Positions 1 through 43,202 of a stretch of DNA of 47,429 bases are shown in pieces. The stretch's first letter is position 1. Each line of letters starts with the position of its first letter. This stretch comes from a virus, in the IMG/VR virus record IMGVR_UViG_3300008735_001623, positions 1-47,429 of that record. One strand, given 5' to 3'. Under the pieces are notes generated by a model. It made no database searches. It was not told the origin of the DNA and saw nothing but the letters and a program-made list of their open reading frames with translations. The position numbers and the translations under genes are program-made.

Positions 1-225
1 CAGCTTAGAAGAATTATTAAGGAAGCACTTCAATTCCCTGATGATGTGTTGGTTGATTCCGATTCTCAAGATTACCAAGAAGGTTATGCTGACGCATATG
101 ACGGCATAAAAATACAAAAAAACGAGCTCGAAAATAAATCTCAGCAATATCAAAACGGCTGGGATGACGGTCATTTTGATATCATTAGAGACAATGAGCC
201 AAACCCCCGCCACCAGGAAGGATAA
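1..225 (+). CDS. Tagged phage protein, 5'-truncated
   Basis: The reading frame is open from the first base and stops with TAA at 223-225, leaving 74 visible residues. It begins QLRRIIKEAL, which is the end of the basic N-terminal tag carried intact by the next genes, so only about six residues of the tag and the start codon lie outside the window. The rest is acidic and Tyr/Gln/Asp-rich, with no recognisable domain. By analogy with its neighbours I infer a tagged, possibly head-packaged, small protein. Function is otherwise unknown. Confidence 0.75.
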   Translation, partial: QLRRIIKEALQFPDDVLVDSDSQDYQEGYADAYDGIKIQKNELENKSQQYQNGWDDGHFDIIRDNEPNPRHQEG

Positions 226-232
226 TCATAAA

Positions 233-607
233 ATGAGAATCACCCGGCGGCAGCTCAGACAGATAATTCGAGAGTCTATCTTGGAAGAGAGGAAAGGTGC
301 GTCAGCATCTGACATCGCTCGCTTCAAGCCACAACTTCTTGAGTGGACAGAAATTCTATTAGATGAATTAGCTGAGGCGGTACCCACGATGAAAGAGATG
401 AGCGAGAAAGCTAGAACCAATATGGCAGGAAGGCTCGCTGATAAAGTCTCTGTTGAGCTGGTTAGCCTAACGAGCGGTATGAGTTACTCTTCAAAGAAAC
501 GAATTGAGAAGAGAGCCGAAAAGAAATCTCATGAAGAGTGGGATAAAAAGCGAAGGGCCCGAGCGAGTGGGGTTCAATACTGGGGCGAGTGGGGTTCAGG
601 CACATGA
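233..607 (+). CDS. Tagged small phage protein (124 aa)
   Basis: Starts at ATG 233, preceded by an AGGAAGGA ribosome site at 215-222; an upstream in-frame ATG at 164 would place the conserved tag 23 residues inside, so 233 is preferred. Residues 1-15 are MRITRRQLRQIIRES, the shared tag with an I-R-E site. The remainder is predicted helical and charged, with a basic Lys/Arg-rich stretch near residues 80-110. No known domain is recognised. The stop overlaps the next start (ATGA), indicating translational coupling within one tagged-protein operon. Possible head-internal protein (inference). Confidence 0.75.
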   Translation: MRITRRQLRQIIRESILEERKGASASDIARFKPQLLEWTEILLDELAEAVPTMKEMSEKARTNMAGRLADKVSVELVSLTSGMSYSSKKRIEKRAEKKSHEEWDKKRRARASGVQYWGEWGSGT

Positions 608-870
608 AAGTAACTCGACACCAGCTTAGAAAGATTATTGCCGAGGCCATGGACCTTGATATTGAGGTGGGCGACGTAATCTTGACAGGTCGTTTTAAGA
701 ATAAACGGACAGTCGTTAAAGACATCGGCAAGGATAAGCTTGGACAACCCACTGTCAATGGAATGAAAGTCCTATCTTTTCGTATAGAAAAATTAATGCC
801 AAAAGAAAAGTGGAGCAAGAAATCTATAGAGGCGCTCGAGTTCGCGGACAGTGTGGAGAAAAAGAAATGA
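604..870 (+). CDS. Tagged small phage protein (88 aa)
   Basis: Start ATG 604 overlaps the previous stop. Residues 1-15 are MKVTRHQLRKIIAEA, the tag with an I-A-E-A junction that closely resembles the T4 gp21 prohead-protease site. The body has a short beta-rich basic region: a VGDVILTGRFKNKRTVV segment, then KVLSFRIEKL. This resembles a small SH3-like or KOW-like barrel, but I cannot name the family. It couples to the next gene by another ATGA overlap. Confidence 0.75.
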   Translation: MKVTRHQLRKIIAEAMDLDIEVGDVILTGRFKNKRTVVKDIGKDKLGQPTVNGMKVLSFRIEKLMPKEKWSKKSIEALEFADSVEKKK

Positions 871-1562
871 GAATCGCAGAGAGACAGCTTAGAATAATTA
901 TTCGTGAAGCATTTGCCGCAAGCGCCGAAGAAGAAGCGCTTAAGGTAAACAAAGAAGCTGGCATTAGTTTGGTAACAGATCAGGCGTTCTGGGATGAGAG
1001 GGGAATCTCTACCGGCGAAGAATTAGCAAAGCACTTGCTGGCTTCCACTTACTCGGATTACTACAAAGACTTGCACGGTATACGACCGCGATGGATGGCT
1101 GACAGAATCAAGACTATGTCTGTTGAAGAGATCCAGACATTAATTGATAATTTAGACAAAGAAGCAGAGGTCATGGCAGCGGATGAGAAATGGGAAGAAG
1201 AGAATCTTCCTGGCTGGGAAGATGAAATGATGGCTGCTGTTGAAGCTAACCCTGAAGATATTCCTTCCGAGTACTTAGAGTATGAAAATCTACCGCAACA
1301 ATCAGGAATGGGTCGTAGAGCAGAGGGCATCGTGAGGATTACAGAAAGACAACTCCGAAATATTATTAAAGAAGTCTTGGTAGAGCAGGGCTGCGCTGAT
1401 ACAGATGACGGTTGCGTTAAGCAGAGCAACGGTGGTGAATATGGTCCAACTGGAACCTGGTATATATTAAATAATAAGAAGGGCGGAGTCTGGAAGAAGG
1501 GCTTTAAGTCTAAACAGTCTGCGAAAGATAGCCTCGGAGCCATGCACGCGAGGGGTGGATAG
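867..1562 (+). CDS. Tagged phage protein with a second internal tag (231 aa)
   Basis: Start ATG 867 overlaps the previous stop. Residues 1-15 are MRIAERQLRIIIREA. A second tag, VRITERQLRNIIKE, begins at residue 156 (GTG at 1332) and is preceded by AGAGGG, so it could also be an internal start. The first module is acidic and helical. The second ends in a compact domain with the pattern TWYILNNKKGGVWKKGF followed by KSKQSAKDSLGAMH; its fold is not recognised. The structure suggests two ancestral tagged genes fused in frame, or a proprotein with two processing sites. Confidence 0.75.
   Translation: MRIAERQLRIIIREAFAASAEEEALKVNKEAGISLVTDQAFWDERGISTGEELAKHLLASTYSDYYKDLHGIRPRWMADRIKTMSVEEIQTLIDNLDKEAEVMAADEKWEEENLPGWEDEMMAAVEANPEDIPSEYLEYENLPQQSGMGRRAEGIVRITERQLRNIIKEVLVEQGCADTDDGCVKQSNGGEYGPTGTWYILNNKKGGVWKKGFKSKQSAKDSLGAMHARGG
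1332..1379 (+). repeat. Internal copy of the tag motif
   Basis: This stretch encodes VRITERQLRNIIKEVL inside the 231-residue protein. It matches the N-terminal tag of neighbouring genes position by position. It begins with GTG and has AGAGGG at 1322-1327, so internal initiation is possible. Confidence 0.7.
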
Positions 1563-1613
1563 AATCCCGTTGAGTCAAATACTTAAGAACGAGATTCTAT
1601 AAGGAGAAATTTT

Positions 1614-2027
1614 ATGTTAGAAATCTTAAACTCATGTTGGAGTTTGTTAGTTGGACTTGGAGAAACCGGTTGGGGGCTCCTTGTTCTCGTTAGTACTTGG
1701 GCATGGGAGGTACTTTATCACCTTCATGTTTCCTCACCTCGTTTAGAGGGTTTGTTGGTTGGTGTGGCATTGGCTTGGCTAATGCTTCGAAGGGATAAGC
1801 ATCCCTTGCTCAGAGTGCTTAGCGCTCCTCTGAAGCTAGTGTTAGACATTCTTGATCTCGGTTGGGATCAGGTTGTTGAAGTCTGCGGTGACCTTTGGGG
1901 CACTGCACGCGCTTGGGTAACCGGTTCGCTCGGTTGGGTTCGCGATAGAGTCGTTGGCCTTTACAATCGGGGTATGGGTATGCTTATAGCTGTAAAAGAC
2001 AGACTAGTCAAGAAGAAGGACGACTAA
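1614..2027 (+). CDS. Hydrophobic membrane protein (137 aa)
   Basis: Start ATG 1614 follows AAGGAG at about 1601. The N-terminal 60 residues are strongly hydrophobic and Trp/Leu/Gly-rich, fitting two or three membrane segments (about residues 8-32 and 43-58). An amphipathic, Trp-rich helical region follows, and the protein ends in a basic tail, RLVKKKDD. It lacks the tag of its neighbours and sits between two tagged genes, with the next ATG one base after its stop. It could be a holin-like or head-associated membrane protein, but no family is recognised. Confidence 0.6.
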   Translation: MLEILNSCWSLLVGLGETGWGLLVLVSTWAWEVLYHLHVSSPRLEGLLVGVALAWLMLRRDKHPLLRVLSAPLKLVLDILDLGWDQVVEVCGDLWGTARAWVTGSLGWVRDRVVGLYNRGMGMLIAVKDRLVKKKDD

Positions 2028-2028
2028 G

Positions 2029-3006
2029 ATGAAATTCACCCGACGGCAACTGGTTAAATTAGTGAAAGAAGAAATGGCTCACCCACGAGATCATCTTGGG
2101 AAGAACATTGCTGACGTCGAATTTCCAGTTGTCGTCGGGTATGAGGACAAATCAGAGATTGCATATAATCAAGATGAGCTGGATAATATTTTAGATGATA
2201 TTACACCTGGTCCCCGCGGAAAAGCTGATATACCGTACAGCTTAAACTCGTTAAAAGATGTTGAAGCAGAAGATATGCCAGTAGGCGCTGCAATAGAGCA
2301 GATGGAGAATTTTAAGATTTCCAAAAGTAGCCTGAAAGAAATGATAAAGAACTCTGTAAGGGCGACCATACTCGAGCAAGTTGTAGGCTATGAGGCGCCA
2401 AGTGGTTCTGAAGAAAGCGAGCAAGATGATTATTTGACAACCGGTCAAACTTCTATCGCCGCTGCCCCGCATAGTCAAGAAGAAGAACAGGCAGCAGATA
2501 CCAGCACAAGAGAGTTGACCCAACAGCGGCAACAGCAGTTAGATACAGATGATGCTGTCACAGCAGACGATACAGGACGTCAGCTTAAAGACTTATTGAA
2601 ACAGAAAAATGAGGGTAAAATGAGGGTTACAAAAAGACAGCTTCGAAAGATTATACATGAAGCTTTATTGAATGAACAAGCTGGTGATGGAAATTGGAAG
2701 CCCGAATACCAAGGGTACCACCCATTATTTGCCGGAAATTACGCTGGTAACGGTTACACAACACGCATGTGGGAACCAGCAAGAGCATTTTTTGAAGCGA
2801 ATGCAGACAACGAACATTTTGCTTTAGCGCTAGAAATAATGGACGGTAAGAATAATCGTCCGCCCTATTTGCCGTTTGGTTTTGCTTCAGCTGTGATGAA
2901 GCAAATAACTAAAGTGGGTGGTCTGTCTCCTGAAATTATACAAGAATTAGACATGGATATGATGAGTACTGATAACGAATATATGGTCGCGTACACAGAC
3001 TGGTAG
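2029..3006 (+). CDS. Tagged phage protein with two further tag-like segments (325 aa)
   Basis: Starts at ATG 2029, one base after the preceding stop. Residues 1-15 are MKFTRRQLVKLVKEE. A degenerate copy, FKISKSSLKEMIKNS, lies near residues 95-109, and a near-perfect copy, MRVTKRQLRKIIHEA, begins at residue 198 with GAGGG upstream of its ATG (2620). Between them is a low-complexity Glu/Gln/Asp-rich linker (about residues 125-195). The C-terminal module (about residues 215-325) is Tyr/Asn/Phe-rich and of unknown fold. The architecture recalls phage scaffold or internal proteins cut at several sites, but that is inference. Confidence 0.75.
   Translation: MKFTRRQLVKLVKEEMAHPRDHLGKNIADVEFPVVVGYEDKSEIAYNQDELDNILDDITPGPRGKADIPYSLNSLKDVEAEDMPVGAAIEQMENFKISKSSLKEMIKNSVRATILEQVVGYEAPSGSEESEQDDYLTTGQTSIAAAPHSQEEEQAADTSTRELTQQRQQQLDTDDAVTADDTGRQLKDLLKQKNEGKMRVTKRQLRKIIHEALLNEQAGDGNWKPEYQGYHPLFAGNYAGNGYTTRMWEPARAFFEANADNEHFALALEIMDGKNNRPPYLPFGFASAVMKQITKVGGLSPEIIQELDMDMMSTDNEYMVAYTDW
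2620..2667 (+). repeat. Internal copy of the tag motif
   Basis: This stretch encodes MRVTKRQLRKIIHEAL inside the 325-residue protein. It has its own ATG and GAGGG nine bases upstream of it (2611-2615), so it may be an alternative start or the scar of a gene fusion. Confidence 0.7.
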
Positions 3007-3015
3007 GAGAAACAA

Positions 3016-3384
3016 ATGAAAATTACAAGAAGACAATTACGAAGACTTATTAAAGAATCCTGTGGGCTTGATGCAGCCCCAGCTGCGGCGGCACCAGAAA
3101 TGATGCCGGCTGCAGTACAACCCCCTACTGATGTGGTACCTGTTCCTGAAGATTATAACATGGTTCGTGATATGCTGGAGCAAAATCCTGAGATTGTTGA
3201 TTTAGGAATTTCTACAGTGATGGATATGGTGGGTACTGGGTGTGAGCGAAGCACAGCACAGGGGATCATAGACCACCTACAAGAGATTGTACTGGGAGCT
3301 GCTCCTGCAGAAGCAGAAGTAGAACAGATACCGATGCTGCCCGTTTCTGATATGGAAATGATAAAGGGCCCGGGATTTATGTAG
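3016..3384 (+). CDS. Tagged acidic phage protein (122 aa)
   Basis: Start ATG 3016 has GGAG at 3006-3009. Residues 1-15 are MKITRRQLRRLIKES. An Ala/Pro/Met-rich flexible linker follows (about residues 19-45), then an acidic helical segment that could fold as a small three-helix unit (about residues 46-95), then an acidic tail. No family is recognised. Its TAG stop overlaps the GTG start of the next gene. Confidence 0.75.
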   Translation: MKITRRQLRRLIKESCGLDAAPAAAAPEMMPAAVQPPTDVVPVPEDYNMVRDMLEQNPEIVDLGISTVMDMVGTGCERSTAQGIIDHLQEIVLGAAPAEAEVEQIPMLPVSDMEMIKGPGFM

Positions 3385-3641
3385 TGAGAATAACGCGTCG
3401 CAAACTACGAGAGATTATTAAAGAGACTCTGCTTTTAGAGCAAGAGGGTGTAGGTAGCGGTGCGATTGAAGCTTTTATTCTAAACGATCTTCTAGAGGAA
3501 AACGAAGAAATGCCATTAGAAGATATTCTAGAACAATCTGAAGGTGCCGGCTTCGATTCAAAAGAAGTGGAAGAAGTGGTGGCTATACTCTTAGATACTG
3601 GCCAGCTTGTGGATGAAGATGGCGCGATTTCGTTAGCATGA
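3384..3641 (+). CDS. Tagged small acidic protein, winged-helix-like (85 aa)
   Basis: Uses GTG at 3384, overlapping the previous stop (TAGTG). This start makes the tag, MRITRRKLREIIKET, exactly N-terminal. Residues 30-85 are strongly acidic. The arrangement FILNDLL, then a helix, then EVVAILLDTGQLVDEDGAISL resembles a minimal winged-helix or DNA-mimic fold, but that is only a pattern impression. It overlaps the next start by ATGA. Confidence 0.7.
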   Translation: MRITRRKLREIIKETLLLEQEGVGSGAIEAFILNDLLEENEEMPLEDILEQSEGAGFDSKEVEEVVAILLDTGQLVDEDGAISLA

Positions 3642-3895
3642 CCCCAGATGTTTATCTGATCTGGTACCGCCACGGCGGTGATAAGCAAGACACCATCGTC
3701 GGAGTAGCGTACCGGTGGGAACATGCCAAGACGATGGCAGAGAATTTATACTCCATCCAAAAGGGTATAGACAAGAAAGAAGAGGTATCAACTGGGGTAT
3801 CTCTCTTTGAGTGTGGTAACCTCTACACTAGTAAGCAACCAAAGTCAAGGTGGCAGGTTCTTCCCATCATGTCCATATCTGCACCTTCTTGGTGA
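3638..3895 (+). CDS. Hypothetical protein (85 aa), last gene of the tagged operon
   Basis: Start ATG 3638 overlaps the upstream TGA, so it should be co-translated with the tagged protein before it. It lacks the tag. The N-terminus, VYLIWYRHGGDKQDTIVGVA, looks like a beta-strand-led small domain. Function is unknown. A promoter and the gene-free stretch begin directly after its stop. Confidence 0.55.
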   Translation: MTPDVYLIWYRHGGDKQDTIVGVAYRWEHAKTMAENLYSIQKGIDKKEEVSTGVSLFECGNLYTSKQPKSRWQVLPIMSISAPSW

Positions 3896-3926
3896 CTAAA
3901 AATAAAATCATTTTCTTTTGAAACCT

Positions 3927-3956
3927 GTGCAAAAGAACAACGCTGTATGATATAAT
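3927..3956 (+). promoter_or_regulatory. Promoter of the structured RNA locus
   Basis: A perfect TATAAT at 3951-3956 is preceded, after an 18-base spacer, by GTGCAA at 3927-3932. The same GTGCAA-18-TATAAT arrangement occurs at 5326-5355. Downstream of both lie similar bases (ATTGA, GG, GGGG). The expected transcript would start near 3962 and immediately form the hairpin GGGGT/ACCCC at 3970-3984. Confidence 0.6.
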
Positions 3957-4059
3957 ATTATTGATGGTTGGGGTAGATGACCCCTTCCCTCCGCTCTTTA
4001 ATATTCTAACGATTTCAGTGGAAGTTAGCAAATGGCTTGGCTCCACACGTCCGGCTCCT

Positions 4060-4073
4060 GGTGAGCGGCAAAG
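4060..4073 (+). repeat. 14-base direct repeat within the RNA locus (copy 1)
   Basis: GGTGAGCGGCAAAG here is repeated exactly at 4389-4402. The copies lie in different helical domains, suggesting a repeated structural motif rather than a transposon trace. Confidence 0.6.
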
Positions 4074-4388
4074 CTTGGGATGACAACGGGTTAAGAACCG
4101 TTGAGCAATGTAGGAAACGTCTGAACCCGAAAGGGTATGTCCGGTTTCCCGATCACGCACCCGTGCCAATCGTGTGGCCACTGATTTTTATTTTTAAGGT
4201 TTAGTGACGGTATTGATCCGACCCCTTAAGTTCTAAGCCCCGCAGTCGCGGGTGGGGAAAACGTTGCTAGCTAGACCATCGATCATCGCCAAAGAGCGAA
4301 GACGCTAAACCTTTTTATTTTGAGGCCTTGGGCTTAGCGGCCCAAGGAGCCGGTGGGGATCGGCAGTTGTTGTAGACAAAGAATGAGC

Positions 4389-4402
4389 GGTGAGCGGCAA
4401 AG
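4389..4402 (+). repeat. 14-base direct repeat within the RNA locus (copy 2)
   Basis: Exact second copy of the 4060-4073 sequence, inside the domain closed by the 10-bp helix 4352-4361/4471-4480. Confidence 0.6.
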
Positions 4403-4582
4403 TGGTAGTCGGCAAGATACGTCAGCCTGAGGGATAACGGACCACCCAGTTATCTCGTACACATACAACGGATCCCCACCTCCTCTTTCATCTGCAAAAA
4501 CACCAGGGAATGGCCCACCTTGGGATGTCAATAAATCAAAAACAACGGGCCCCTTTTATATCATCCATTCCCCGGGGGGATT

Positions 4583-5308
4583 ATGACAAACTCAATCAGA
4601 CTTTTCGAAGTTGGTGGCTCCATTCGTGATGAACTAATGGGCATCACCGAAATTCCTGACCGCGACTTCTGTGCTGAAGCACCCTCCTGGCCTGCTCTTC
4701 TTGAGTGGTGCCGCTCTAGTATGGAGCGAGTGTTTCTTGTTACTCCTGAATTTTTTACCGTCCGTGGGCGTATGCCGAACGGTGATTCGATTGACGTGGT
4801 CATGTGTCGTAAGGACGGTTCAAGTTCTGACGGTCGTCATCCTGATACTGTCGAAGCTGGTACTCTTCTTGACGACTTGGCTCGTAGAGACTTCACGGTC
4901 AATGCTATGGCTCGTGAGGTGGACCCCGCAACTCTTGAACCGATTGGTGAGATCATCGACCCGTTCAGCGGTCGTATCCATCTGGAGAAGGGATTGCTTC
5001 GTTGCGTCGGAACAGCGGCGCTAAGGCTTGAGGAAGACGGTCTTCGAGTCTTGAGAGCTGTTCGGTTCTCTATCACCAAGGAACTCACACCCTGCGAAGA
5101 GCTTGGTTTCGAACTCAAGTCTGGTCATTGGTGGACTTTCGCTGGTGAGACTGTCAGCAACGAACGCATCCGTGAAGAACTTACGAAGATGTTCAAGCAC
5201 GATACTCTTCGAACCATGATTCGGTTTGTTGAGCATCTTCCTGGCGAGGCTCTTATGCTGCTCGAAACAGCTGGCATCTGGCTTAAGCCGACGGTGGAAA
5301 AAAAGTAA
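4583..5308 (+). CDS. tRNA nucleotidyltransferase (CCA-adding enzyme) / poly(A) polymerase family
   Basis: The class II nucleotidyltransferase signature is complete. GGSIRDELMG (residues 11-20) is followed by the metal-binding DRD (26-28), a further Asp in SIDVVM (about 71), RRDFTVNAMA (101-110), and the nucleotide-selecting EEDGLRVLRAVRF (about 150-162). In this family these build the 3' CCA end of tRNA or add short tails to RNA. At 241 residues it lacks the long C-terminal body and tail domains of bacterial enzymes, so it is a minimal version. A GGGGGG ribosome site precedes ATG 4583. It lies directly after the structured RNA locus. Its codons are visibly richer in G and C than those of its neighbours, suggesting separate acquisition. 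Confidence 0.85.
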   Translation: MTNSIRLFEVGGSIRDELMGITEIPDRDFCAEAPSWPALLEWCRSSMERVFLVTPEFFTVRGRMPNGDSIDVVMCRKDGSSSDGRHPDTVEAGTLLDDLARRDFTVNAMAREVDPATLEPIGEIIDPFSGRIHLEKGLLRCVGTAALRLEEDGLRVLRAVRFSITKELTPCEELGFELKSGHWWTFAGETVSNERIREELTKMFKHDTLRTMIRFVEHLPGEALMLLETAGIWLKPTVEKK

Positions 5309-5313
5309 AACTG

Positions 5314-5360
5314 TTTCTGACAATCGTGCAAGAACCATCAGAAAAATGGTATAATATAAT
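5314..5360 (+). promoter_or_regulatory. Promoter with flanking inverted repeat
   Basis: GTGCAA at 5326-5331, an 18-base spacer and TATAAT at 5350-5355 repeat the architecture found at 3927-3956. TTTCTGA (5314-5320) and TCAGAAA (5338-5344) form a 7-bp inverted repeat bracketing the -35 box, a possible operator. It would drive the genes from 5403 onward. Confidence 0.55.
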
Positions 5361-5402
5361 TGAAGGTGGGGAAATACTTCCTCCCAAAATCCTCGGTGAA
5401 TA

Positions 5403-5648
5403 ATGACTGAACATCTTAATACAGACAATTTTGATTTTAACTCCTCATCACAAACGTTCTTTGCTGATGCATCTGAGCTCGGATGGAAGCCCGGACTTAT
5501 CCCCGCTCGAATTGCTTTGACATCAGCAAGAACCGGTAAAGTCATAAGCTTTAAGCTTGATTTTATCGAGGAAGATGGATCTCTCAAGTTCGAGGCTTGG
5601 AACCCAACTAATTGGCGCGGGGTTAAAATCCACGTCTTTAACGACTAG
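5403..5648 (+). CDS. Hypothetical protein (81 aa)
   Basis: First gene after the promoter at 5326-5355, with only a weak ribosome site (CGGTGA). The acidic N-terminal third is followed by a beta-rich core (IPARIALTSARTGKVISFKL) and a Trp-containing C-terminus. I recognise no family. It precedes another unknown gene by seven bases. Confidence 0.55.
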   Translation: MTEHLNTDNFDFNSSSQTFFADASELGWKPGLIPARIALTSARTGKVISFKLDFIEEDGSLKFEAWNPTNWRGVKIHVFND

Positions 5649-5655
5649 GGACAGA

Positions 5656-6216
5656 ATGTCAGACTACGACCCAAATGTACCGATGCTTAGACAACTTCTT
5701 GCTCTTCAAATTCTTGGAAAGCTTGAAGACGCAGGGTTTAAGCATGAGCCACCAACAAAGAAGATGGCTAAGCCCTACATGGCAGAAAGAATTTATGCAC
5801 GTCATGATGGACTTCCGCCGGGTATGAAAGTGCAAGTCTACACGACTGTCATTGGTGATGGTGAGAATGTGCCGATAGAAGTACGCACGAGTGGCAAGGA
5901 TGCCATCCGAGTATGCGCGGTATATGTGACCAAGGATGGAAAGACAAGGGGCCTTGGAAAGGAAACTCGCGTCAATCGTGCCGGGAATATCGAGGATATC
6001 GTAGACCGGATGGTCGAGCGGATGCGCAAGGCATGGATGACATGCAAGACGGCTGAGAAATGTAACAGCTGTGGCGCGCCAAAATTCGTAACTAAAAATA
6101 ATAAGCTTTGCTGCTCAGAGATCTGCTGGAAATCAGATGAAGAAAAGCGGGCAGATGAAATTTCATTCAAAACAAAAAACCGCCGGACACGGCGCAACTA
6201 TCGTCGATGGCGGTAA
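5656..6216 (+). CDS. Hypothetical protein with C-terminal zinc ribbon (186 aa)
   Basis: ATG 5656 follows GGGACAG; an in-frame upstream ATG at 5557 would overlap the preceding gene heavily and is rejected. Residues 45-110 form a beta-rich domain (MKVQVYTTVIGDGENVPIEV). Near residues 135-155 is C-N-S-C then C-C-S-E-I-C, a four-plus-cysteine zinc ribbon, followed by a very basic tail ending RRTRRNYRRWR. Together these suggest nucleic-acid binding, but no named family is assigned. Confidence 0.65.
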   Translation: MSDYDPNVPMLRQLLALQILGKLEDAGFKHEPPTKKMAKPYMAERIYARHDGLPPGMKVQVYTTVIGDGENVPIEVRTSGKDAIRVCAVYVTKDGKTRGLGKETRVNRAGNIEDIVDRMVERMRKAWMTCKTAEKCNSCGAPKFVTKNNKLCCSEICWKSDEEKRADEISFKTKNRRTRRNYRRWR

Positions 6217-6226
6217 GGAGAAAAAT

Positions 6227-6499
6227 ATGCAAGACAAACCTGTTTACATCTACTTCAATCACGACCAGTGCCATAACTTCAACATTGAATATTTTGGCGA
6301 ATCCACTCTAACAGCTACAGGGGAAGAGATACTCAATTCTCGCTGGCAAGGATACGACAAGTTTCACCAGACTGTTCTTAAGCCTTTATCGTACAAACTT
6401 CTAACCTTGATTAAGACAGAATCTGATAGACCGGGGTGGTACTTATTGACAGGATATAATGAATCTGACTTTCCGGAGCTGAATGATGGAAATGCATAA
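6227..6499 (+). CDS. Hypothetical protein (90 aa)
   Basis: ATG 6227 is preceded by AAGGAG at 6215-6220, which decides this start over an earlier in-frame ATG inside the upstream gene. It is Tyr/Phe-rich, with a plausible alpha/beta layout and no known motif. Its 3' end overlaps the next gene by 17 bases. Confidence 0.6.
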   Translation: MQDKPVYIYFNHDQCHNFNIEYFGESTLTATGEEILNSRWQGYDKFHQTVLKPLSYKLLTLIKTESDRPGWYLLTGYNESDFPELNDGNA

Positions 6500-6719
6500 A
6501 GAAAAATATGAAGAGCTTCTTCGAAGATTTTGTCAGGAGCTACATGAAGTTGGGGTGAGTGAGAACCTCAAAGGTCTTATTCAAGACCAGGGAAACAGGA
6601 CCCCAAATGTTATAGTCACCAGCGCCGAAGAGACCACGGATCGGTTTACCTACAGGCATGAGGGCTATATGATTGAAGCAGTAAGGACTGTCAAACTAGT
6701 AGTGAAAACAACAAAATGA
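6483..6719 (+). CDS. Hypothetical protein (78 aa)
   Basis: Start ATG 6483 lies inside the end of the preceding gene, with CCGGAG upstream. An N-terminal amphipathic helix (EKYEELLRRFCQELHEVGV) is followed by a beta-rich half ending in VRTVKLVVKTTK. No family is recognised. Its TGA overlaps the next ATG, so it is coupled to the cysteine-cluster gene. Confidence 0.55.
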   Translation: MMEMHKEKYEELLRRFCQELHEVGVSENLKGLIQDQGNRTPNVIVTSAEETTDRFTYRHEGYMIEAVRTVKLVVKTTK

Positions 6720-7105
6720 ATTATCGTGCTTGTGGTAGCTGCTCCGTATGTTGCGAAGTACTGGAGATACCCACGCTAGAAAAGCCCAAGAAGACCCTCT
6801 GTAGTAATGTTTGTGAGGGCGGGGGTTGTTCCATATATCAAGACAGACCAAGTGAATGTCGTACGTTTCAGTGCATCTGGAGTGAAGGATATACTGGAAG
6901 CGGACAACGTCCGGACAAGAGCGGTATCATGGCCTATCATATCGATACACAATACGGTAGGACGCTGCTAATTCTTGAAGTAAAAGAAAAAGCGTTCGCT
7001 CGGCGTTCGTCACAAAAAGATAGGCTGGTCAAGTTCGCAGAAAAAAGAAATACGCCAGTGTTCGTGTCAAATCACAGAGGAGAAACTACCGCGATGATTC
7101 CGTAA
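6716..7105 (+). CDS. YkgJ-like CxxCxxCC cysteine-cluster protein (129 aa)
   Basis: The N-terminus, CGSCSVCC (residues 6-13), followed by paired cysteines in LCSNVC, GGGCSIYQDRPSECR and FQCIW, is the signature of the YkgJ/UPF0153 family. This family is thought to bind zinc or an Fe-S cluster through eight conserved cysteines; its biochemical role is unknown. The conserved C-x-I-Y-x-x-R-P-x-x-C-R block is intact. Start ATG 6716 overlaps the previous stop. Confidence 0.8.
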   Translation: MNYRACGSCSVCCEVLEIPTLEKPKKTLCSNVCEGGGCSIYQDRPSECRTFQCIWSEGYTGSGQRPDKSGIMAYHIDTQYGRTLLILEVKEKAFARRSSQKDRLVKFAEKRNTPVFVSNHRGETTAMIP

Positions 7106-7126
7106 AGCGGTATGAGGGGATAAATT

Positions 7127-7639
7127 ATGAAGAATGCAGAAAAAGCAAAAATTTACGCTTATGAAAAACATGCTGGTCAAATTCATGGAACTAGACCATT
7201 TACAACTCATCTACATGAGGTAGTCGACACCCTCCATGAATTTGGATATAAGGACGATGATCTTACAGCGGCTGCATGGTTGCACGATGTGGTCGAAGAT
7301 ACTTCTGTAACTATTGAAGAAATTTATACAGAATTCGGAGACAGAATCGGAGACCTTGTGGATGCGCTAACTGATGGGCCTGGTGAGACACGTCTAGAAA
7401 AGAAAGCAAAACCATATGCGACGATACCCAACGTTCCTGGAGCTGTTATCGTAAAACTAGCTGACAGAATAGCCAATGTTAGATTTACGATGGTCGAGGG
7501 TGCCAAAGCTGAACGGTATCGGATGACGTATAAAAAAGAGCACGCCGGCTTTTGCAATGCGCTTAGCAAAGAAGGTGAAGCGACCGAGATGTGGTATCTA
7601 CTGGACAATCTTCTGACCGGGGGTTTGAGGGGCGTGTAA
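7127..7639 (+). CDS. HD-domain (p)ppGpp hydrolase-like protein (MESH1/SpoT type)
   Basis: At 170 residues it matches the stand-alone hydrolase domain of RelA/SpoT homologues in order. HAGQ lies at residues 15-18, then TTHLHEV with the metal His near 28, the HD and ED pairs in WLHDVVEDT (53-58), and LADRIANV with Asp 113 and Asn 117. No synthetase domain is present. Family members remove the 3' pyrophosphate of ppGpp and need manganese. The predicted role is lowering alarmone in infected, starved cells. Other HD nucleotide pyrophosphatases cannot be excluded. A ribosome site (GAGGGG) precedes ATG 7127. Confidence 0.75.
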   Translation: MKNAEKAKIYAYEKHAGQIHGTRPFTTHLHEVVDTLHEFGYKDDDLTAAAWLHDVVEDTSVTIEEIYTEFGDRIGDLVDALTDGPGETRLEKKAKPYATIPNVPGAVIVKLADRIANVRFTMVEGAKAERYRMTYKKEHAGFCNALSKEGEATEMWYLLDNLLTGGLRGV

Positions 7640-7687
7640 GTCAACAACTGCTTCTACGAAATACTTAGCATGGAGGTGAAAGCTTCC

Positions 7688-7879
7688 ATGCGTTTTTATT
7701 TGTTATTGATCCTATTATTACTTCTTTGTTGCGCCAAGAAAGAAGAACCACTCCAGCCCGCCTACGTTCCACCAGAACTAGACTGGACAGAAGATATGGA
7801 TTTTGAAGAACTTCCTGAAGCGGGTGATACAGCAGATAATGATGTTGACGAAGACTTTATTATAGAACAAAATGATTGA
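7688..7879 (+). CDS. Small acidic lipoprotein (63 aa)
   Basis: ATG 7688 is chosen because GGAGGTG at 7673-7679 lies at correct spacing; the ATG at 7670 overlaps that ribosome site. MRFYLLLILLLLLCCAKKEE is a compact signal peptide with a lipobox at LLLCC. The mature part is Pro- and Asp/Glu-rich with no fold apparent. It could be an outer-membrane lipoprotein of spanin or superinfection-exclusion type, but no neighbouring gene supports a lysis cassette. Confidence 0.6.
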   Translation: MRFYLLLILLLLLCCAKKEEPLQPAYVPPELDWTEDMDFEELPEAGDTADNDVDEDFIIEQND

Positions 7880-7906
7880 TATAATGATTCTTCGTGAGAG
7901 AAGAAT
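7880..7906 (+). promoter_or_regulatory. Possible promoter with hairpin
   Basis: TATAAT at 7880-7885 is followed at once by a perfect 7-bp hairpin, ATTCTTC (7887-7893) with GAAGAAT (7900-7906), at the expected transcript start. The -35 is poor (TTTATT at 7856-7861). It precedes the second block of tagged genes. The hairpin has no U-run, so it is not a terminator. Confidence 0.35.
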
Positions 7907-7934
7907 AATTAAAGATAACTCCTGGAGATAAAAA

Positions 7935-8447
7935 ATGCGTATAAGCAAACGAGAGATACTGGAATTGATTTACGAACAGCAGGTTCAGGATTCGAAACGA
8001 CCTGATGAAGTTCAACCCGAGGAAGATGTGTGGGGTACGGGTGAGGAGCTTGAGCGCCCAATTGACTTCGAGAAAGAGTCTGGTCTTCCAGCTAATGTTG
8101 ATGAACCAGAAGTTTTGGAGATTGTTGAAAGAGTAAAGCGACGCGCACGACTTCGTAGAATGATTAGGGAGCAAATGGCTGCCGCTGTTGAGGAAGAAGT
8201 TGTAGAACCAGAAGGCGGAGCTGTTGTAGATCCGGTAGTTGATGTTGAAGAAGAAAGAGCATCAGCAAGCCAGCAGTCATTACGTGACTGGCTAAAGGAT
8301 ACGGCTGCTGGAGTAGCAGGAATGGGAATTGCTGATGGACAGATTCCAGCATTGATTGCGTCCATGGATGACCTGATCCTCTCCGCGCAGAGCGGAAAGA
8401 TGGCAAGCAGAGAAGACAAAGTTCGTCAACACATTGACACGGAGTAA
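7935..8447 (+). CDS. Tagged acidic phage protein with internal tag-like helix (170 aa)
   Basis: Start ATG 7935 has GGAG upstream. The tag is a divergent version, MRISKREILELIYEQ. A second basic helix, VKRRARLRRMIREQM, occupies about residues 67-81, with M-I-R-E in place of I-I-x-E. Between and after are very acidic segments (AAAVEEEVVEPEGG and similar) and a C-terminal helical domain (about residues 112-170). Alternating basic tags and acidic spacers resemble phage scaffold or internal head proteins; function is inferred only. Confidence 0.7.
   Translation: MRISKREILELIYEQQVQDSKRPDEVQPEEDVWGTGEELERPIDFEKESGLPANVDEPEVLEIVERVKRRARLRRMIREQMAAAVEEEVVEPEGGAVVDPVVDVEEERASASQQSLRDWLKDTAAGVAGMGIADGQIPALIASMDDLILSAQSGKMASREDKVRQHIDTE
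8133..8177 (+). repeat. Internal tag-like helix
   Basis: Encodes VKRRARLRRMIREQM, similar in charge pattern and the R-x-x-I-R-E ending to the N-terminal tags. It is more degenerate than the copies at 1332 and 2620. Confidence 0.45.
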
Positions 8448-8450
8448 AAA

Positions 8451-8999
8451 ATGCAGTTGTCCAAAAGAGACCTGCTTCGTATCATTAGAGAAGAAGCTGC
8501 GAAATCGACAGAAAAATATGATGAAGATTCTGCTTTAAAGGGAGATCAAGATGAATTACCCGACGCGCTACAGAAGGGTATCATCGATAAGACAGTCGAG
8601 GATAGAGAAAAAAATGAGTCGACAATTCGTTTTACTCGTCAGCAACTGCTTAAGATTTTGCGCGAAGAAATGGAGCTCGTCCAGGAAGAAGAGCCGCTAG
8701 CTTTAGACGCTGATGGTCTTGCTGCTGTTATTGCAGATATTGTAGGGGGAGTTGAGGCCGAAGAAGAGCCCCTTATGATGGGCGATGGTGGTAGAGCGAG
8801 AATGGCAAAACAGCAGCTGCAGCAGATCGCTAGCGCAGCTCAGGGCCTTCATGATCAACTAAATGACGATGATGAAATTCCAGAATGGACTCAGTCAAAT
8901 ATTGCGGTTGCTGAAGACAACATTGATGCAATAGCAGACCACCTTGGATATAAGATGACGGTCCAAGAAAATCGACGTAAAATTCGAAGAAAAAAATGA
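8451..8999 (+). CDS. Tagged phage protein with second internal tag (182 aa)
   Basis: Start ATG 8451 follows the previous stop by three bases. Residues 1-15 are MQLSKRDLLRIIREE. A second copy, IRFTRQQLLKILREE, begins at residue 59. The C-terminal half (about residues 95-170) is predicted as a helical bundle (RMAKQQLQQIASAAQGLHDQ), and the protein ends in a strongly basic tail, RRKIRRKK. Its end overlaps the start of the Dps-like gene (ATGA), so the two are likely produced together. Confidence 0.7.
   Translation: MQLSKRDLLRIIREEAAKSTEKYDEDSALKGDQDELPDALQKGIIDKTVEDREKNESTIRFTRQQLLKILREEMELVQEEEPLALDADGLAAVIADIVGGVEAEEEPLMMGDGGRARMAKQQLQQIASAAQGLHDQLNDDDEIPEWTQSNIAVAEDNIDAIADHLGYKMTVQENRRKIRRKK
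8625..8672 (+). repeat. Internal copy of the tag motif
   Basis: Encodes IRFTRQQLLKILREEM within the 182-residue protein, matching the N-terminal tag including the L-R-E end. It has no ATG of its own at the motif start. Confidence 0.6.
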
Positions 9000-9562
9000 T
9001 ACGTCGTATTAAAGAACAATGCGATCTGGGTCCGATTCCGGGCGGTGATGTTGAAGTTGTAGTTCCTGAAATTGAAATGAACGCAATGGAACAGATGATT
9101 CCAGTAACTGCTTCAGAAATTATGGCTGCGTACATCGGGTTCACCAGAGCATATCACCTATGGTTCCATGCCGCGCATAACCTCACCAAGGGAACAGGGT
9201 TCGCTGGTGATCATGTAGACCTTTATGGTAAGATATACATAGAGGTGCAAGACTCCATCGATAGAGTGATTGAAAAAGCAGTTGGCGTTTTTGATGATGA
9301 GGCCTTGGCTTGTCCAATAAGAATAACTGCTGATGCATCGCTTGTTCTAGAGGAGTGGAATTCTCCAGCGGGACAATCGGCTGCTGTTATCGCAGACGCA
9401 GCGTTAGCCTACACAGAGCAGCTCGTTAAGCTTGACGAAAGAGTGGCTCAGACTCTAGATGAAATGGGCGCATTAACGTACGGACTTGATAACCTACTTG
9501 CAGAACTAGCAGATACGCATGAAGGGTACGTCTATCTACTAAGACAGCGCGTTAAGAATTAA
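8996..9562 (+). CDS. Dps/ferritin-like protein (188 aa)
   Basis: Residues 44-185 follow the Dps pattern: a helix, then A-H-N, a His twelve residues later in GDHVDLYG, and D-x-x-x-E in SIDRVIEKA about sixteen residues on. These correspond to the inter-subunit ferroxidase ligands of Dps (His51, His63, Asp78, Glu82 in E. coli). The C-terminus, LADTHEGYVYLLRQR, matches the final Dps helix. Dps shells bind and oxidise iron and protect DNA. The N-terminus, MIRRIKEQCDL, looks like the second half of the tag of the upstream genes. One extra residue in the ligand spacing keeps this call moderate; a broader ferritin-like function is possible. Confidence 0.55.
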   Translation: MIRRIKEQCDLGPIPGGDVEVVVPEIEMNAMEQMIPVTASEIMAAYIGFTRAYHLWFHAAHNLTKGTGFAGDHVDLYGKIYIEVQDSIDRVIEKAVGVFDDEALACPIRITADASLVLEEWNSPAGQSAAVIADAALAYTEQLVKLDERVAQTLDEMGALTYGLDNLLAELADTHEGYVYLLRQRVKN

Positions 9563-16758: not shown

Positions 16759-17919
16759 ATGTCAATATTCAAAAGACATAAGACGATAGCAGATCGATCG
16801 GCTAATGATCGATCGAGGCATCGCAAGAAAATTGAGAAAGCTATCAAAGAGGGGATCCATAATATCGTTGCAGAAGAGTCCATTATCGGAAAAGGTGGAA
16901 AGAAGAAATTTCGAATTCCTGTTAGGGGGATTAAAGAATATCGCTTTGTATATGGAGACAATGGGTCTAAAAGAGTGGGGTCAGCCCAAGGAAAAGATGT
17001 CCAGCGTGGACAAGTTATTGGTGAGAAAGAGCGCCGGCGTGATCAAGCTGGTGGAAAGCCAGGACAAGAAAAGGGCGAAGAATTTTATGAAGTAGAACTA
17101 ACTCTAGAGCAACTGTCTGAATACCTCTTCAAGGATTTAGAGCTTCCAAATTTTGAAAAGAAAAGAAATGCAAAAGTTGTTTCGAAAAAAATAAAGAGAA
17201 AAGGCTACAGAACAAAGGGTATCCGACCAAGGCTTGATAAGAAAAAGACAGTCATGCAGAAGATCAAGCGAAGAAAGAAGGCCGAGTACTCGGGCACTAG
17301 AGGAGAAGATGAAGACTTTTCATTTCATGACAGAGATCTACGATATCGTCATTATAAGGTTTCAAAAAAGCTGTCCTCAAATGCTGCGATTTTCTTTTTG
17401 ATGGATATCTCTGGATCAATGACAAAAGAAAAGAAGTTTCTTGCAAGGAGTTTTTTCTTTTTGCTTTATCACTTTATTCGCTCTAAATATGACAAGGTGG
17501 AACTAGTATTTATATCACATGATGTAGAAGCGTATGAAGTGACAGAAGAACAATTCTTCGGACGTGGTTCATCAGGTGGAACTCTAGTTTCTTCTGCTGT
17601 TAAAATGACAGATGACATTATTGATATTCGATATCATCCGTCTAACTGGAATACATATGTTTTTCAATGTTCTGATGGTGACAACTGGCCAGGTGACAAT
17701 GATGCTGTACGAGGTTTGCTTTCTACGCTAATGCCGAAAGTACAATTCTTTGGGTACTGTGAAATATCTCCTAACAGTGAACGTCTAAAGTGGATAAATG
17801 ACACATCGCTTGGGAAGCTTTACGAGACAATGACGAGTGATAAATTTAAATCTGTAGGGATATATTCAAAAAATGATATCTGGGTGGCGTTTAATAATTT
17901 TTTTAAGGGAGAATATTAG
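16759..17919 (+). CDS. YeaH/DUF444-family vWA protein
   Basis: At 386 residues it is slightly shorter than E. coli YeaH (about 427). The N-terminal half is basic and Lys/Arg-rich, as in the family. The vWA core starts near residue 210 with FFLMDISGSMTKEKKF, giving the DxSxS metal site. SHDVEAYEVTEEQFFGRGSS, GGTLVSSAVKM and QCSDGDNWPGDN follow, as in YeaH. In bacteria YeaH acts with the kinase PrkA/YeaG in starvation and stationary-phase adaptation. Here it is the first gene of YeaH-SpoVR-PrkA, with no gap to the next gene. Confidence 0.9.
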   Translation: MSIFKRHKTIADRSANDRSRHRKKIEKAIKEGIHNIVAEESIIGKGGKKKFRIPVRGIKEYRFVYGDNGSKRVGSAQGKDVQRGQVIGEKERRRDQAGGKPGQEKGEEFYEVELTLEQLSEYLFKDLELPNFEKKRNAKVVSKKIKRKGYRTKGIRPRLDKKKTVMQKIKRRKKAEYSGTRGEDEDFSFHDRDLRYRHYKVSKKLSSNAAIFFLMDISGSMTKEKKFLARSFFFLLYHFIRSKYDKVELVFISHDVEAYEVTEEQFFGRGSSGGTLVSSAVKMTDDIIDIRYHPSNWNTYVFQCSDGDNWPGDNDAVRGLLSTLMPKVQFFGYCEISPNSERLKWINDTSLGKLYETMTSDKFKSVGIYSKNDIWVAFNNFFKGEY

Positions 17920-19224
17920 ATGTCTTTATTAAAAGAATTAGAGAAGTGGGACGAGACCTTAGAGAAGATGGCTCTTGATCATGGCTTGGATTGGTTTCCT
18001 ATCCTGTATGAGACATGTGATTATTATGAAATGATTGGTACAATGGCATATCATGGAATGCCCTCTCATTACGGACATTGGAGCTACGGCAAAAGCTTTG
18101 AACGGACGCATGCCATGTATAATGCCGGCCTAGAAGGCTTACCTTATGAATTGATCATCAATAGTGATCCATCTTTAGCTTATTTGATGGAAGAAAATCC
18201 ACTCTATCTTCAAATCTTAATAATGGCTCACTGTATCGGACATTCAGACTTTTTCAAGAATAACGCAACGTTCAAAAAAACCAGGCCAGACCAAGTTATC
18301 TTAAGAATGCGCAATGCAAAAAGATACATCGATCAGCTCGTAGAAGATCCAAGCGTTGGTGTAGAGCGAGTTGAAGAAGTTTTGGATGCGGTTCATGCGT
18401 TATCTTTGCACGTGCCCAGAAGGCACAAGAAATATGTTTCTCAAAAAGAGCAACGCAAAGAGCTTATTCAAGAAATTAAGGGTGGATTTTTCAAAGATGA
18501 AAAAACATCTCCGAACCCCGACAGATATCCCATAAGTAGAGAAGAAAATCTTATCGCATTTATTGCAGAAATGGCGCAAGGATTAGAAGAGTGGGAAAGA
18601 GAATTAATGTTGATTGCTTTGGATGATGCTCAATATTTCATGCCACAGATTAGAACGAAGATAATGAACGAAGGATGGGCGTCATACTGGCACTACAGAT
18701 TGATGCATGAATTAGAATTAGATTCAGGCATGCACTTGCCATTCCTAAAAATGCATAATGAAGTTGTTCGTCCCCACCTTGGTTCGATCAATCCTTATCA
18801 TTTAGGGTTTCATATGTTTCAGAAAATTGAAGAGAGGTTTGGACTTGAGGAATGCTTTATCGCAAGAGAGTCATTAAATGATGAATCATTTTTAAGACAA
18901 TACCTCACCGAAAAGGATTGCGAAGAATTGAACCTATTTAGTTTCTCTTTACACAAGAATGAGTACATGATAGATGATGTGTCAGATACACAAGGATGGA
19001 AAAACGTGAAAGAAGACCTAATCAAACAAGTTGGCGGGAATAATATACCCGTAATAACAGTGGCTGGTATTGAAGAAGGAAATATTTTGTGTCTACAGCA
19101 TGAACACGATGGTAGGGATTTAGACTTAGATTACGGAGATGCAGTGGTCCGACATATTACTCGTTTGTGGGGTGATATTGTTAAATTGGATACGATAATC
19201 GAAGATGAACCCTTCGAGATTTAG
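17920..19224 (+). CDS. spoVR: SpoVR/YcgB-family protein
   Basis: At 434 residues it is close to the family length (about 470-510). It contains the family hallmarks GLDWFPILYETCDYYEMIG, MPSHYGHWSYGK, and HCIGHSDFFKNN near residues 108-119, plus MNEGWASYWHYRLMHEL near 250. SpoVR affects Bacillus spore cortex formation, and YcgB is a stress- and stationary-phase protein in E. coli; the biochemical activity is unknown. It begins immediately after the YeaH stop, so they are surely co-expressed. Confidence 0.9.
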   Translation: MSLLKELEKWDETLEKMALDHGLDWFPILYETCDYYEMIGTMAYHGMPSHYGHWSYGKSFERTHAMYNAGLEGLPYELIINSDPSLAYLMEENPLYLQILIMAHCIGHSDFFKNNATFKKTRPDQVILRMRNAKRYIDQLVEDPSVGVERVEEVLDAVHALSLHVPRRHKKYVSQKEQRKELIQEIKGGFFKDEKTSPNPDRYPISREENLIAFIAEMAQGLEEWERELMLIALDDAQYFMPQIRTKIMNEGWASYWHYRLMHELELDSGMHLPFLKMHNEVVRPHLGSINPYHLGFHMFQKIEERFGLEECFIARESLNDESFLRQYLTEKDCEELNLFSFSLHKNEYMIDDVSDTQGWKNVKEDLIKQVGGNNIPVITVAGIEEGNILCLQHEHDGRDLDLDYGDAVVRHITRLWGDIVKLDTIIEDEPFEI

Positions 19225-19238
19225 TTCGGGAGAAGCTT

Positions 19239-21167
19239 ATGTCAAAAAACAAATATCTAGATATTATTAAGGCTCAACGGGCTTCTAATAAGAAAGAAAA
19301 ATTTAGAGGGACTTTTCTCGAGTACCTTTCTCTTATAGAGAAGGATCCCTCCATAACTGATCATGCACATAAAAGGCTTTATGATACAATCACTGAGCAC
19401 GGTGTGAGTAGGCTTGATGACACTGACCCTAGAAAACACAAGCTATTTGATGGAGAGAACATAAAGACTTATGAGTATTTTCAAAGTCAATTTTATGGGA
19501 TGGAAAAAGTAATAGCTAAAATAATGAGGTATCTTCGCTCGGCTGGACTTAAGGGTGAAGAGAGTCGTCAGGTATTACTTTTGATGGGCCCGGTTGGCGC
19601 TGGAAAATCTGCTCTCACAGAGCATATAAAGAGCTGTCTGGATGGCCATACATACTACCACTTAGAAAGTGATCCTCAGTGCGGTGAGCCGCTTCAATTA
19701 ATTCCGCGGTCTTTGAGACCAAAGATGAAAGAGATGTTAGGCGTGCATATTGAAGGAGACATATCTCCCGTTGCAAGACACCTCTTGTTTGAAGAATACG
19801 GTGGGGAATATGAAAAGTTTATTGTAAAAGAAACTACATTTTCCCAGCGAGCAAGAAGGGGTGTTGCATCAGTACCACCAATGGATGCAAATAGCCAAGA
19901 CGTTTCTGTCCTTATCGGTTCAGAAGACATTTCCAAGTTAGACAAATATTCTGAAGATGATCCCAGAGCGCTTAGTCTTAATGGAGCATTCAACGTGGGT
20001 AATCGTGGGATTGTAGAGCTTGTGGAGGTCTTTAAGAATGAAATTGAGTTTCTCCACACAATCATCACCGCGACACAGGAGAAGAGAGTTCCGTCCCCCG
20101 GAAAGCATGATATGATCCATTTCGATGGTGTGATCTTAGCGCACTGTAATGAGGCGGAATGGAATCGGTTCCAGAGTGAGCACACTAACGAAGCTATTTT
20201 AGATAGGATTGTTAAGATCGATGTACCGTATGTTCTGGAACTAGAACAGGAAATTCGGATTTACGAAAAAATTCTTGGTCAAGCCAATTTTGATATTCAT
20301 ATCGCTCCCCATACTCTACGCGTTGCGTCGATGTTTTCGATTCTCAGTCGATTGCATGAAAGTCAAAAATGTGATCTCTTAACAAAGCTAAAAATCTATA
20401 ATGGCGAAGAAGTTGTAGAAAAGGGTCGAGTCAAGAAAATAGACATTACTGACTTGAAAGACGAATCAGACAGAGAGGGAATGACTGGAATTTCTACAAG
20501 ATTCATAATGAAAGCAATTGATAACGCATTAAGTGATTCTGATCGTGATTTTATCACCCCTGTTTCCATGCTAGACTCCTTGATGAAGCAAGTGAAAGAA
20601 CAACTGATAAACAAAGATTTCGCAGAGCGTTGTCTTGAATTGATTCGAAATACGGTCAGGAATGAATATCTTAGATTGCTTGAAAATGAAATCGCAAAAG
20701 CATTTATTACTGCGTATGAAGAACAAGCACAATCCATTTTTGAAAACTATCTTGATAATGCCGAAGCCTTTACAACAAAGTGTAAACTAAAAGATCGAGT
20801 AACAAAAGAAGATATGCATCCTGATGAAGACTTTATGAGATCTATCGAAGGTGCTATTGGAGTGAGCTCATCGGGCAAAGAGGGGTTCCGAGCAGATGTG
20901 ACTGCTTACATGTTCGCTAAAATGAGAAGGGGCGAAGTTGTTGATTATACATCTTATGAGCCGCTTAAGGAAGCGATCGAAACATACCTAATCAGCTCAG
21001 TAAAAGATCTGGCTAGAATCGTTACAAAGTCTAAGACTAGAGATGATGAACAGAAGCATAAATACTCAAGCATGGTGCAAACCTTGATAGACGAATATGG
21101 TTACACAGCTGAATCAGCAGAAGAAGTCTTGGTGTACGCTAGTAACAATCTCTGGAGAGATAGCTGA
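19239..21167 (+). CDS. prkA: PrkA/YeaG-family serine protein kinase (AAA+)
   Basis: At 642 residues it is essentially full length (E. coli YeaG is about 644). Walker A is GPVGAGKSALTEH (about residues 117-129). Regions recognisable in the family include QFYGMEKVIAKIMRYLRSA before it, and FDGVILAHCNEAEWNRF followed by ILDRIVKIDVPYVL. The C-terminal third resembles the region related to kinases. PrkA is an AAA+ protein reported to have Ser/Thr kinase or protease activity and, in enterics, to act in nitrogen starvation with YeaH. Start ATG 19239 follows GGGAG and lies 14 bases after SpoVR. Confidence 0.9.
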   Translation: MSKNKYLDIIKAQRASNKKEKFRGTFLEYLSLIEKDPSITDHAHKRLYDTITEHGVSRLDDTDPRKHKLFDGENIKTYEYFQSQFYGMEKVIAKIMRYLRSAGLKGEESRQVLLLMGPVGAGKSALTEHIKSCLDGHTYYHLESDPQCGEPLQLIPRSLRPKMKEMLGVHIEGDISPVARHLLFEEYGGEYEKFIVKETTFSQRARRGVASVPPMDANSQDVSVLIGSEDISKLDKYSEDDPRALSLNGAFNVGNRGIVELVEVFKNEIEFLHTIITATQEKRVPSPGKHDMIHFDGVILAHCNEAEWNRFQSEHTNEAILDRIVKIDVPYVLELEQEIRIYEKILGQANFDIHIAPHTLRVASMFSILSRLHESQKCDLLTKLKIYNGEEVVEKGRVKKIDITDLKDESDREGMTGISTRFIMKAIDNALSDSDRDFITPVSMLDSLMKQVKEQLINKDFAERCLELIRNTVRNEYLRLLENEIAKAFITAYEEQAQSIFENYLDNAEAFTTKCKLKDRVTKEDMHPDEDFMRSIEGAIGVSSSGKEGFRADVTAYMFAKMRRGEVVDYTSYEPLKEAIETYLISSVKDLARIVTKSKTRDDEQKHKYSSMVQTLIDEYGYTAESAEEVLVYASNNLWRDS

Positions 21168-21168
21168 T

Positions 21169-21615
21169 GTGTTTAGATTGCCCCCAGATCAAAAATCTTA
21201 TTTCTATAAAAACATTGAAATAAGAGAATCTTCTGTGCATGGCTTGGGTGTTTTTGCGACACAAGACATTCCAATACACACATGCTTTGAAATTTCACCC
21301 GTTGTTATTTTTGACAGAAGCCTTATGCAGGACTGGCTAGATATGTACGATGAGCGGCATATTCTAAACGAGTACTTGTTCCAATCGTACGACAAACAGC
21401 ATGCAGTCGTGCTTGGTTTTGGAAGCATCTATAACCATTCAGCGTTCCCAAATGCATTTTACAGATGGCGAGAATGTGAAAAATTTCCAGCAATGGAATT
21501 TTGGTCTAAAAGAGCGATCGTAAAAAACGAAGAAATATTCGTGAAATATACACATTATTCTGATACATTACAATTCATGGATGAGAAAGAATCCAAGTAT
21601 CTTGGGCTTGAATAA
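21169..21615 (+). CDS. SET-domain protein (putative lysine methyltransferase, 148 aa)
   Basis: GTG 21169 is used, one base after the PrkA stop, with GGAGAG at 21153-21158; the ATG at 21166 is out of frame. SVHGLGVFATQDIP (about residues 22-35) is the first SET motif (G-x-G-x-F). GFGSIYNHSAFPNAFY supplies the N-H-S knot element, and EEIFVKYTHY the catalytic-Tyr region. Minimal viral SET proteins of similar size occur in chlorella viruses. Substrates here are unknown; adjacency to PrkA and a chaperonin-like gene suggests a host protein target, by inference. Confidence 0.75.
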   Translation: MFRLPPDQKSYFYKNIEIRESSVHGLGVFATQDIPIHTCFEISPVVIFDRSLMQDWLDMYDERHILNEYLFQSYDKQHAVVLGFGSIYNHSAFPNAFYRWRECEKFPAMEFWSKRAIVKNEEIFVKYTHYSDTLQFMDEKESKYLGLE

Positions 21616-38712: not shown

Positions 38713-38714
38713 AA

Positions 38715-43193: not shown

Positions 43194-43202
43194 GGAGTTT
43201 TT

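Follow-up and report, generated by a model that had tools for sequence, protein, structure and literature searches.

Why should many otherwise unrelated genes of one virus start with the same short peptide? This question is raised by the left end of a 47,429-bp virus record, which is a fragment (the whole stretch analysed, hereafter called the window). A preliminary description listed nine gene starts with a basic N-terminal tag and interpreted the tag as a head-targeting signal that ends in a cleavage site for a prohead protease. All nine listed places carry the tag, although the gene at position 1 is truncated. The tagged genes and their neighbours are as follows; a slash follows the Glu that ends a putative site.

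1-225, + strand: truncated tagged gene; the tag enters the window at residue 7 (QLRRIIKE/A), and the complete start is at L007:120
233-607, + strand: tagged gene; tag at 233-274, MRITRRQLRQIIRE/S; tagged orthologues in L017 (85%) and L033
604-870, + strand: tagged gene; tag at 604-645, MKVTRHQLRKIIAE/A; the body (GDVILTGRFKNKRTVVK) is kept in many relatives
867-1562, + strand: two-module tagged ORF; tag at 867-908, MRIAERQLRIIIRE/A
1332-1373, + strand: internal tag of ORF 867-1562 (GTG), RITERQLRNIIKE/V
1614-2027, + strand: untagged hydrophobic, Trp-rich gene with no family match; conserved, recurring beside tagged genes in many loci
2029-3006, + strand: multi-module tagged ORF; tag at 2029-2070, MKFTRRQLVKLVKE/E
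2311-2352, + strand: weak internal tag of ORF 2029-3006, then ATILE/Q
2620-2661, + strand: internal tag of ORF 2029-3006, MRVTKRQLRKIIHE/A
3016-3384, + strand: tagged gene; tag at 3016-3057, MKITRRQLRRLIKE/S
3384-3641, + strand: tagged gene with a GTG start; tag at 3384-3425, VRITRRKLREIIKE/T; second site LLLE/Q
7935-8447, + strand: tagged gene; tag at 7935-7976, MRISKREILELIYE/Q
about 8133-8171, + strand: internal tag-like helix of gene 7935-8447, RARLRRMIRE/Q
8451-8999, + strand: two-tag gene; tag at 8451-8492, MQLSKRDLLRIIRE/E
8625-8666, + strand: internal tag of gene 8451-8999, IRFTRQQLLKILRE/E; the two-tag architecture is also found in G010
8996-9562, + strand: Dps-like (ferritin-fold) protein with the short N-terminus MIRRIKE/Q

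A strict regular expression for the tag, applied to all six frames of the 47 kb, gave nine matches, all on the + strand and all within 1-8.5 kb, and a start codon was found two codons upstream in 9/9. The number expected by chance is about 0, as 60 windows simulated with a second-order Markov model and 2000 shuffled proteomes contained no strict tag. Two of the strict matches, at 1332 (GTG) and 2620 (ATG, with a good ribosome-binding site), lie within longer ORFs. The tags at 604 and 8625 come in with looser forms of the motif, weaker internal copies lie at 2311 and 8133, and the N-terminus of the protein at 8996 is a short tag remnant. The preliminary description lists neither the internal copies nor this remnant. 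The gene at position 1 is cut by the contig edge; the overlapping record L007 places the start of this gene 18 nt upstream, and the full tag read from that record is MKITRRQLRRIIKEALQF.

Other parts of the window have features of their own. Positions 3900-4560 are poor in ORFs and include GC-rich segments and a repeated GTGAGCGGCAAAG word, and neither this region nor the window as a whole matched Rfam (at the gathering threshold for the window). A complete trio of DUF444 (YeaH-like), SpoVR and PrkA kinase genes, which is normally a bacterial operon, occupies 16759-21167 of this phage contig, and a SET-domain protein (PF00856) is encoded directly after the PrkA gene (21097-21615). A long run of glycosyltransferase-like and sugar-handling genes lies at 36757-47427, behind two large tail-fibre-like proteins.

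We scanned IMG/VR with a degenerate DNA form of the tag, which gave at least 119 stretches, many of them from records of 100-290 kb, and fetched six related records of 102-284 kb in full; genes were called with a simple custom script. At the profile threshold, the six records have 41, 39, 25, 19, 14 and 12 tagged start codons, all on the coding strand, so that the search for the motif in related phages proposed in the preliminary description yields 12-41 per full record. Because the loci were found by the tag itself, these counts describe tag-bearing phages and not phages at large. The tagged genes are mostly 70-230 aa long and stand in tandem, head to tail, often with a spacing of -4, -1 or +1 nt. 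The carriers of the tag are a group of uncultured giant T4-like phages. In 84,980 bacterial and archaeal genomes, the pattern was found in five contigs only, all in metagenome-assembled genomes, and one of these, 305.8 kb long, encodes a gp21-family protease as well as 24 tags. The motif is all but restricted to contigs of phages; it is not found mainly on non-virion genes of hosts, which the preliminary description had named as an outcome contrary to its interpretation. A tblastn search of phage records with a 20-residue consensus tag, a short query, gave no match, and at up to one DNA mismatch there is no tag in immuto, Mel-JY01, T4, RM378, Tunturi_5 or LR756508, the six closest of the cultured or published records that were tested. 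A literature search for the tag string found no paper, and virion proteomics for these uncultured phages was not found in the literature.

Is the I-x-E at the end of the tag a real site? We sampled 133 N-termini selected on residues 1-8 only, because otherwise the answer would be forced. Residue 14 was Glu in 131/133 and residue 12 was Ile or Val in 132/133 (126 Ile). The information content is 3.73 bits at residue 14 and then falls to 1.97, 1.16 and 0.69. Among 135 representatives, M1 and E14 are the only invariant residues, and I3, Q7, L8 and I12 are also conserved. The tag has about 14 residues; they form a regular basic amphipathic pattern with a net charge of about +4.4 in the fetched records. 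The end in I-x-E claimed in the preliminary description was borne out, whereas A, S or T after the site was not typical across the lineage: about 60% of tags have Glu at P1', unlike the capsid site described below, and this counts against a cleaved leader. A second bump of conservation, Glu22 with Leu, Val, Met or Ile at residue 20, lies about eight residues past I-x-E. This second [LIVM]xE site is present in 76/131 tags, compared with a mean of 32 and a maximum of 46 in 500 shuffles, and it goes with Glu at residue 15 (59/80 vs 17/51; Fisher p about 1e-5, a purely descriptive value given the relatedness of the tags). The T4 protease gp21 cleaves after L/I-x-E and its substrates have leaders of 10-19 residues (PMC9026906), and the [I/L]-x-E of the tag fits this consensus.

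The preliminary description also called for a search for a gp21-like protease gene. PF03420, the T4 gp21 family, was found in 17/38 tag-bearing records among the matches listed, including 14/14 of those of at least 142 kb; the gene was not found in the window, which is a fragment. The protease of the lineage matches Peptidase_S77. Co-occurrence with the protease alone is weak support, because to our knowledge any T4-like phage is expected to have a gp21-family protease. The head loci themselves show sites that resemble that of the tag. Their gene order is portal, conserved protein, protease, two small proteins, others, scaffold-like protein and capsid protein; in G011, the protease gene is at 30278-30880 and the small-protein genes are at 30886 and 31385. 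In 17/17 head loci, the propeptide of the capsid protein, about 60 residues long, ends in a conserved ENQA-x-Q-[VIL]-L-[RK]-E form, slightly varied in places; the next residue is A, S, Q or V, and P2 is basic as in the tag. Near the C-terminus of the scaffold, [LI]-[NSA]-E/[SG] is conserved in most sequences examined, a form similar to that of the second tag site. The small protein encoded next to the protease typically has the N-terminus MAKxSRxxLKxLVKECLVEILxE/G, and when 1648 proteins were scored with the tag profile, it exceeded the 99.9% null level in 6/6 genomes. The second small protein scores more weakly and not in every genome, some homologues being near null. In the 17 head loci, the untagged proteins that match the tag best are nearly all one or other of these two small proteins. 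The capsid gene of G002 is immediately followed by four tagged genes.

Some further observations were made in head-gene clusters. The head loci of G001 and G003 (L216 and L217) encode two paralogous capsid proteins, both with the same propeptide site. A bS21-like ribosomal protein gene is found in the cluster at L152:13596-13820 (G011) and L229:9143-9370, and also in Microcystis phage Mel-JY01. In LR756508, a 484-kb uncultured phage, paralogues a few kb behind the capsid gene (L234:11787-13607) begin with MRLKEILLE or MRLKNVLLKE, which may be another kind of capsid-address leader, used in a different lineage.

What lies behind the tag? The bodies were said to be mostly acidic and otherwise unrelated, and both statements hold. 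The bodies carry -6.6 charges per 100 aa, compared with -2.5 in untagged proteins of the same genomes, and the 439 non-redundant complete tagged proteins among the matches listed fall into 249 body clusters, 193 of which are singletons. The 135 representatives of tagged bodies matched seven Pfam families (Zeta toxin, AAA, DUF3008, DUF5824, DUF1522 and two EF-hand models), compared with 63 for 132 untagged proteins that were taken from the same phages and matched in length. Families of replication and nucleotide metabolism are absent from the tagged bodies, whereas many of the families in the untagged set are of that kind; the tagged proteins avoid housekeeping, non-virion enzyme families. The one body with a clear fold is the Dps-like protein at 8996, whose AlphaFold2 model (mean pLDDT 80.6) has only Dps proteins as top PDB matches (best E 4e-4) and whose orthologue in G011 has a longer tag-like leader, MKIKKSKLRRIISE/Q. 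A RelA/SpoT-type HD_4 hydrolase has a weak tag in G008:1319-2263 and may therefore be an injected alarmone hydrolase there; its relative in the window (7127-7639) is untagged.

Tags also occur inside genes. In L112 and L016, the second module of ORF 867-1562 stands alone as a tagged gene. In L079, the first half of this ORF is followed by a tag and then by the 604-type module, which is a separate gene in the window. ORF 2029-3006 joins pieces that are separate tagged genes in relatives, for example the VVGY module. Internal tag-like segments were found in 36/270 longer tagged proteins vs 11/1063 untagged proteins, and C-terminal ones in 8/432 vs 2/1492. As read from these arrangements, internal tags mark module boundaries, and the modules are shuffled between genomes. 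Internal tags would suit polyproteins whose parts come apart at the tag; where an ATG or GTG is in place, it is equally possible that genes have fused and that the internal starts are used independently. A wider proposal is that the cargo is delimited by tags throughout, such that every module opens with the leader, shuffling and fusion recombine the modules between genomes, and polyproteins are cut into effectors by the prohead protease inside the head. We give this proposal slightly less than an even chance.

Each informative sequence test that was run supports the head-targeting and cleavage reading of the preliminary description. A search for T4-type late promoters, which would point to late expression of the kind that allows packaging, found no enrichment. 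We put the probability at roughly 0.85 that the tag is a capsid-targeting and prohead-protease leader that works like the capsid-targeting sequence (CTS) of T4, without sequence homology to it and greatly expanded. Because the label ends in a site of the type that appears to be used in capsid maturation, the tagged proteins are probably packed into the head, trimmed and delivered to the host. We infer a bipartite leader, in which the basic amphipathic helix (M-K-I-T-K-R-Q-L-R-R-I-I) would attach its protein to the prohead's scaffolding core. The terminal I-x-E would be cut by the gp21-family prohead protease when the capsid protein and scaffold mature. The second L-x-E, about eight residues further on, may often back up the first cut site. 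The freed bodies would remain in the head, be ejected with the DNA and act as effectors, and internal tags would make some ORFs polyproteins that the same protease could separate. By this mechanism, the tagged genes would be a large, fast-changing set of cargo plus some core components.

It should be considered whether the tag is cut at all. It might only dock its protein to the prohead core or another phage complex, with Glu14 kept for helix contacts, and the amphipathic pattern, the conserved I3, Q7, L8 and I12 besides E14 and the frequent Glu at P1' would agree with this. We regard it as improbable, since conservation ends right after E14, the L/I-x-E form is shared with the sites in the capsid propeptide and the scaffold, the second L-x-E site is enriched over shuffles and internal tags lie at the boundaries of interchangeable modules. 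It is more improbable still that the tag addresses DNA, a membrane or a host machine and that the tagged proteins are early intracellular factors. This would not explain why the tag ends in I-x-E, why the capsid and scaffold sites match it, why the small proteins encoded next to the protease resemble it or why tagged genes can directly follow the capsid gene, although the basic leader, the small acidic bodies and the conserved hydrophobic neighbour at 1614 are compatible with it.

The tandem arrays with their short spacing could also bring to mind a translated DNA-level repeat or recombination cassette without peptide function. For the tags of the window, codon identity at matching residues is 0.40, near the chance level, and the peptide is kept. 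In other records it is 0.49-0.59, above the expectation of 0.36-0.41 from codon usage, which suggests some recent duplication and would suit a repeat. The start codon is exactly in place for nearly all matches, and codon choice that diverged while the peptide was kept indicates selection on the peptide. We reject the repeat on this codon divergence and leave it hardly any probability.

If the leader works as proposed, the address would show which proteins an entire lineage of giant phages is likely to inject. They number in the hundreds, have not been studied, almost all lack a recognised domain and would probably be active at the very start of infection. The Dps-like protein would be among them, and a P-loop protein and the weakly tagged HD-domain hydrolase are candidates. 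If the tag-delimited system is also true, one phage would inject a repertoire of at least 40 proteins that can be read directly from sequence. The tag would also offer a second, independent leader for testing how capsid targeting works.

The closest comparison is with the CTS of the T4 internal proteins IPI, IPII and IPIII. In both systems, a short N-terminal leader is common to otherwise unrelated small proteins and ends in I-x-E (MKTYQEFIAE/A in IPII and IPIII, ..ITE/A in IPI; NC_000866), and a gp21-family protease is present in T4 and in the relatives here. The three T4 internal proteins are injected anti-restriction factors (PMC12373910). T-even relatives of T4 carry many variants of them, a diverse defence-countering set in which the leader is the only shared part (PMC3012670, PMC12373910). 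Homology between the two leaders was not found, as the tag profile scores about -24 on IPII and IPIII. The systems also differ in scale: a genome here can have as many as about 41 tagged start codons, whereas T4 has 3 and reports for the T-even phages together give 10 or more. The bodies are acidic here, whereas T4 internal proteins are described as basic, and internal or C-terminal tags and fused modules are features unlike those of T4 internal proteins.

Other gp21 substrates of T4 give further parallels. T4 gp23 is cut at residue 65 (LTE/A), compared with a propeptide of about 60 residues here. Alt, gp24, gp67, gp68 and gp22 are cut after L/I-x-E, and the start of gp24, MAKINELLRE/S, is close in form to the capsid site here; these proteins are a fixed structural set in T4, unlike the tagged genes here. 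A likeness of LIKEEK in gp67 to the tag was not significant (267/5000 shuffles). Alt is processed at both ends (PMC5694885), and by analogy the C-terminally tagged proteins here might be as well. The giant phages SPN3US and phiKZ have many head proteins with leaders cut after a Glu-ending motif, and ejected cargo (PMC5694885). In these phages, the examples given have A-x-E or S-x-E motifs, several propeptides exceed 100 residues and the protease belongs to MEROPS S80, whereas here the leader has about 14-22 residues, the motif is I/L-x-E and the protease matches Peptidase_S77.
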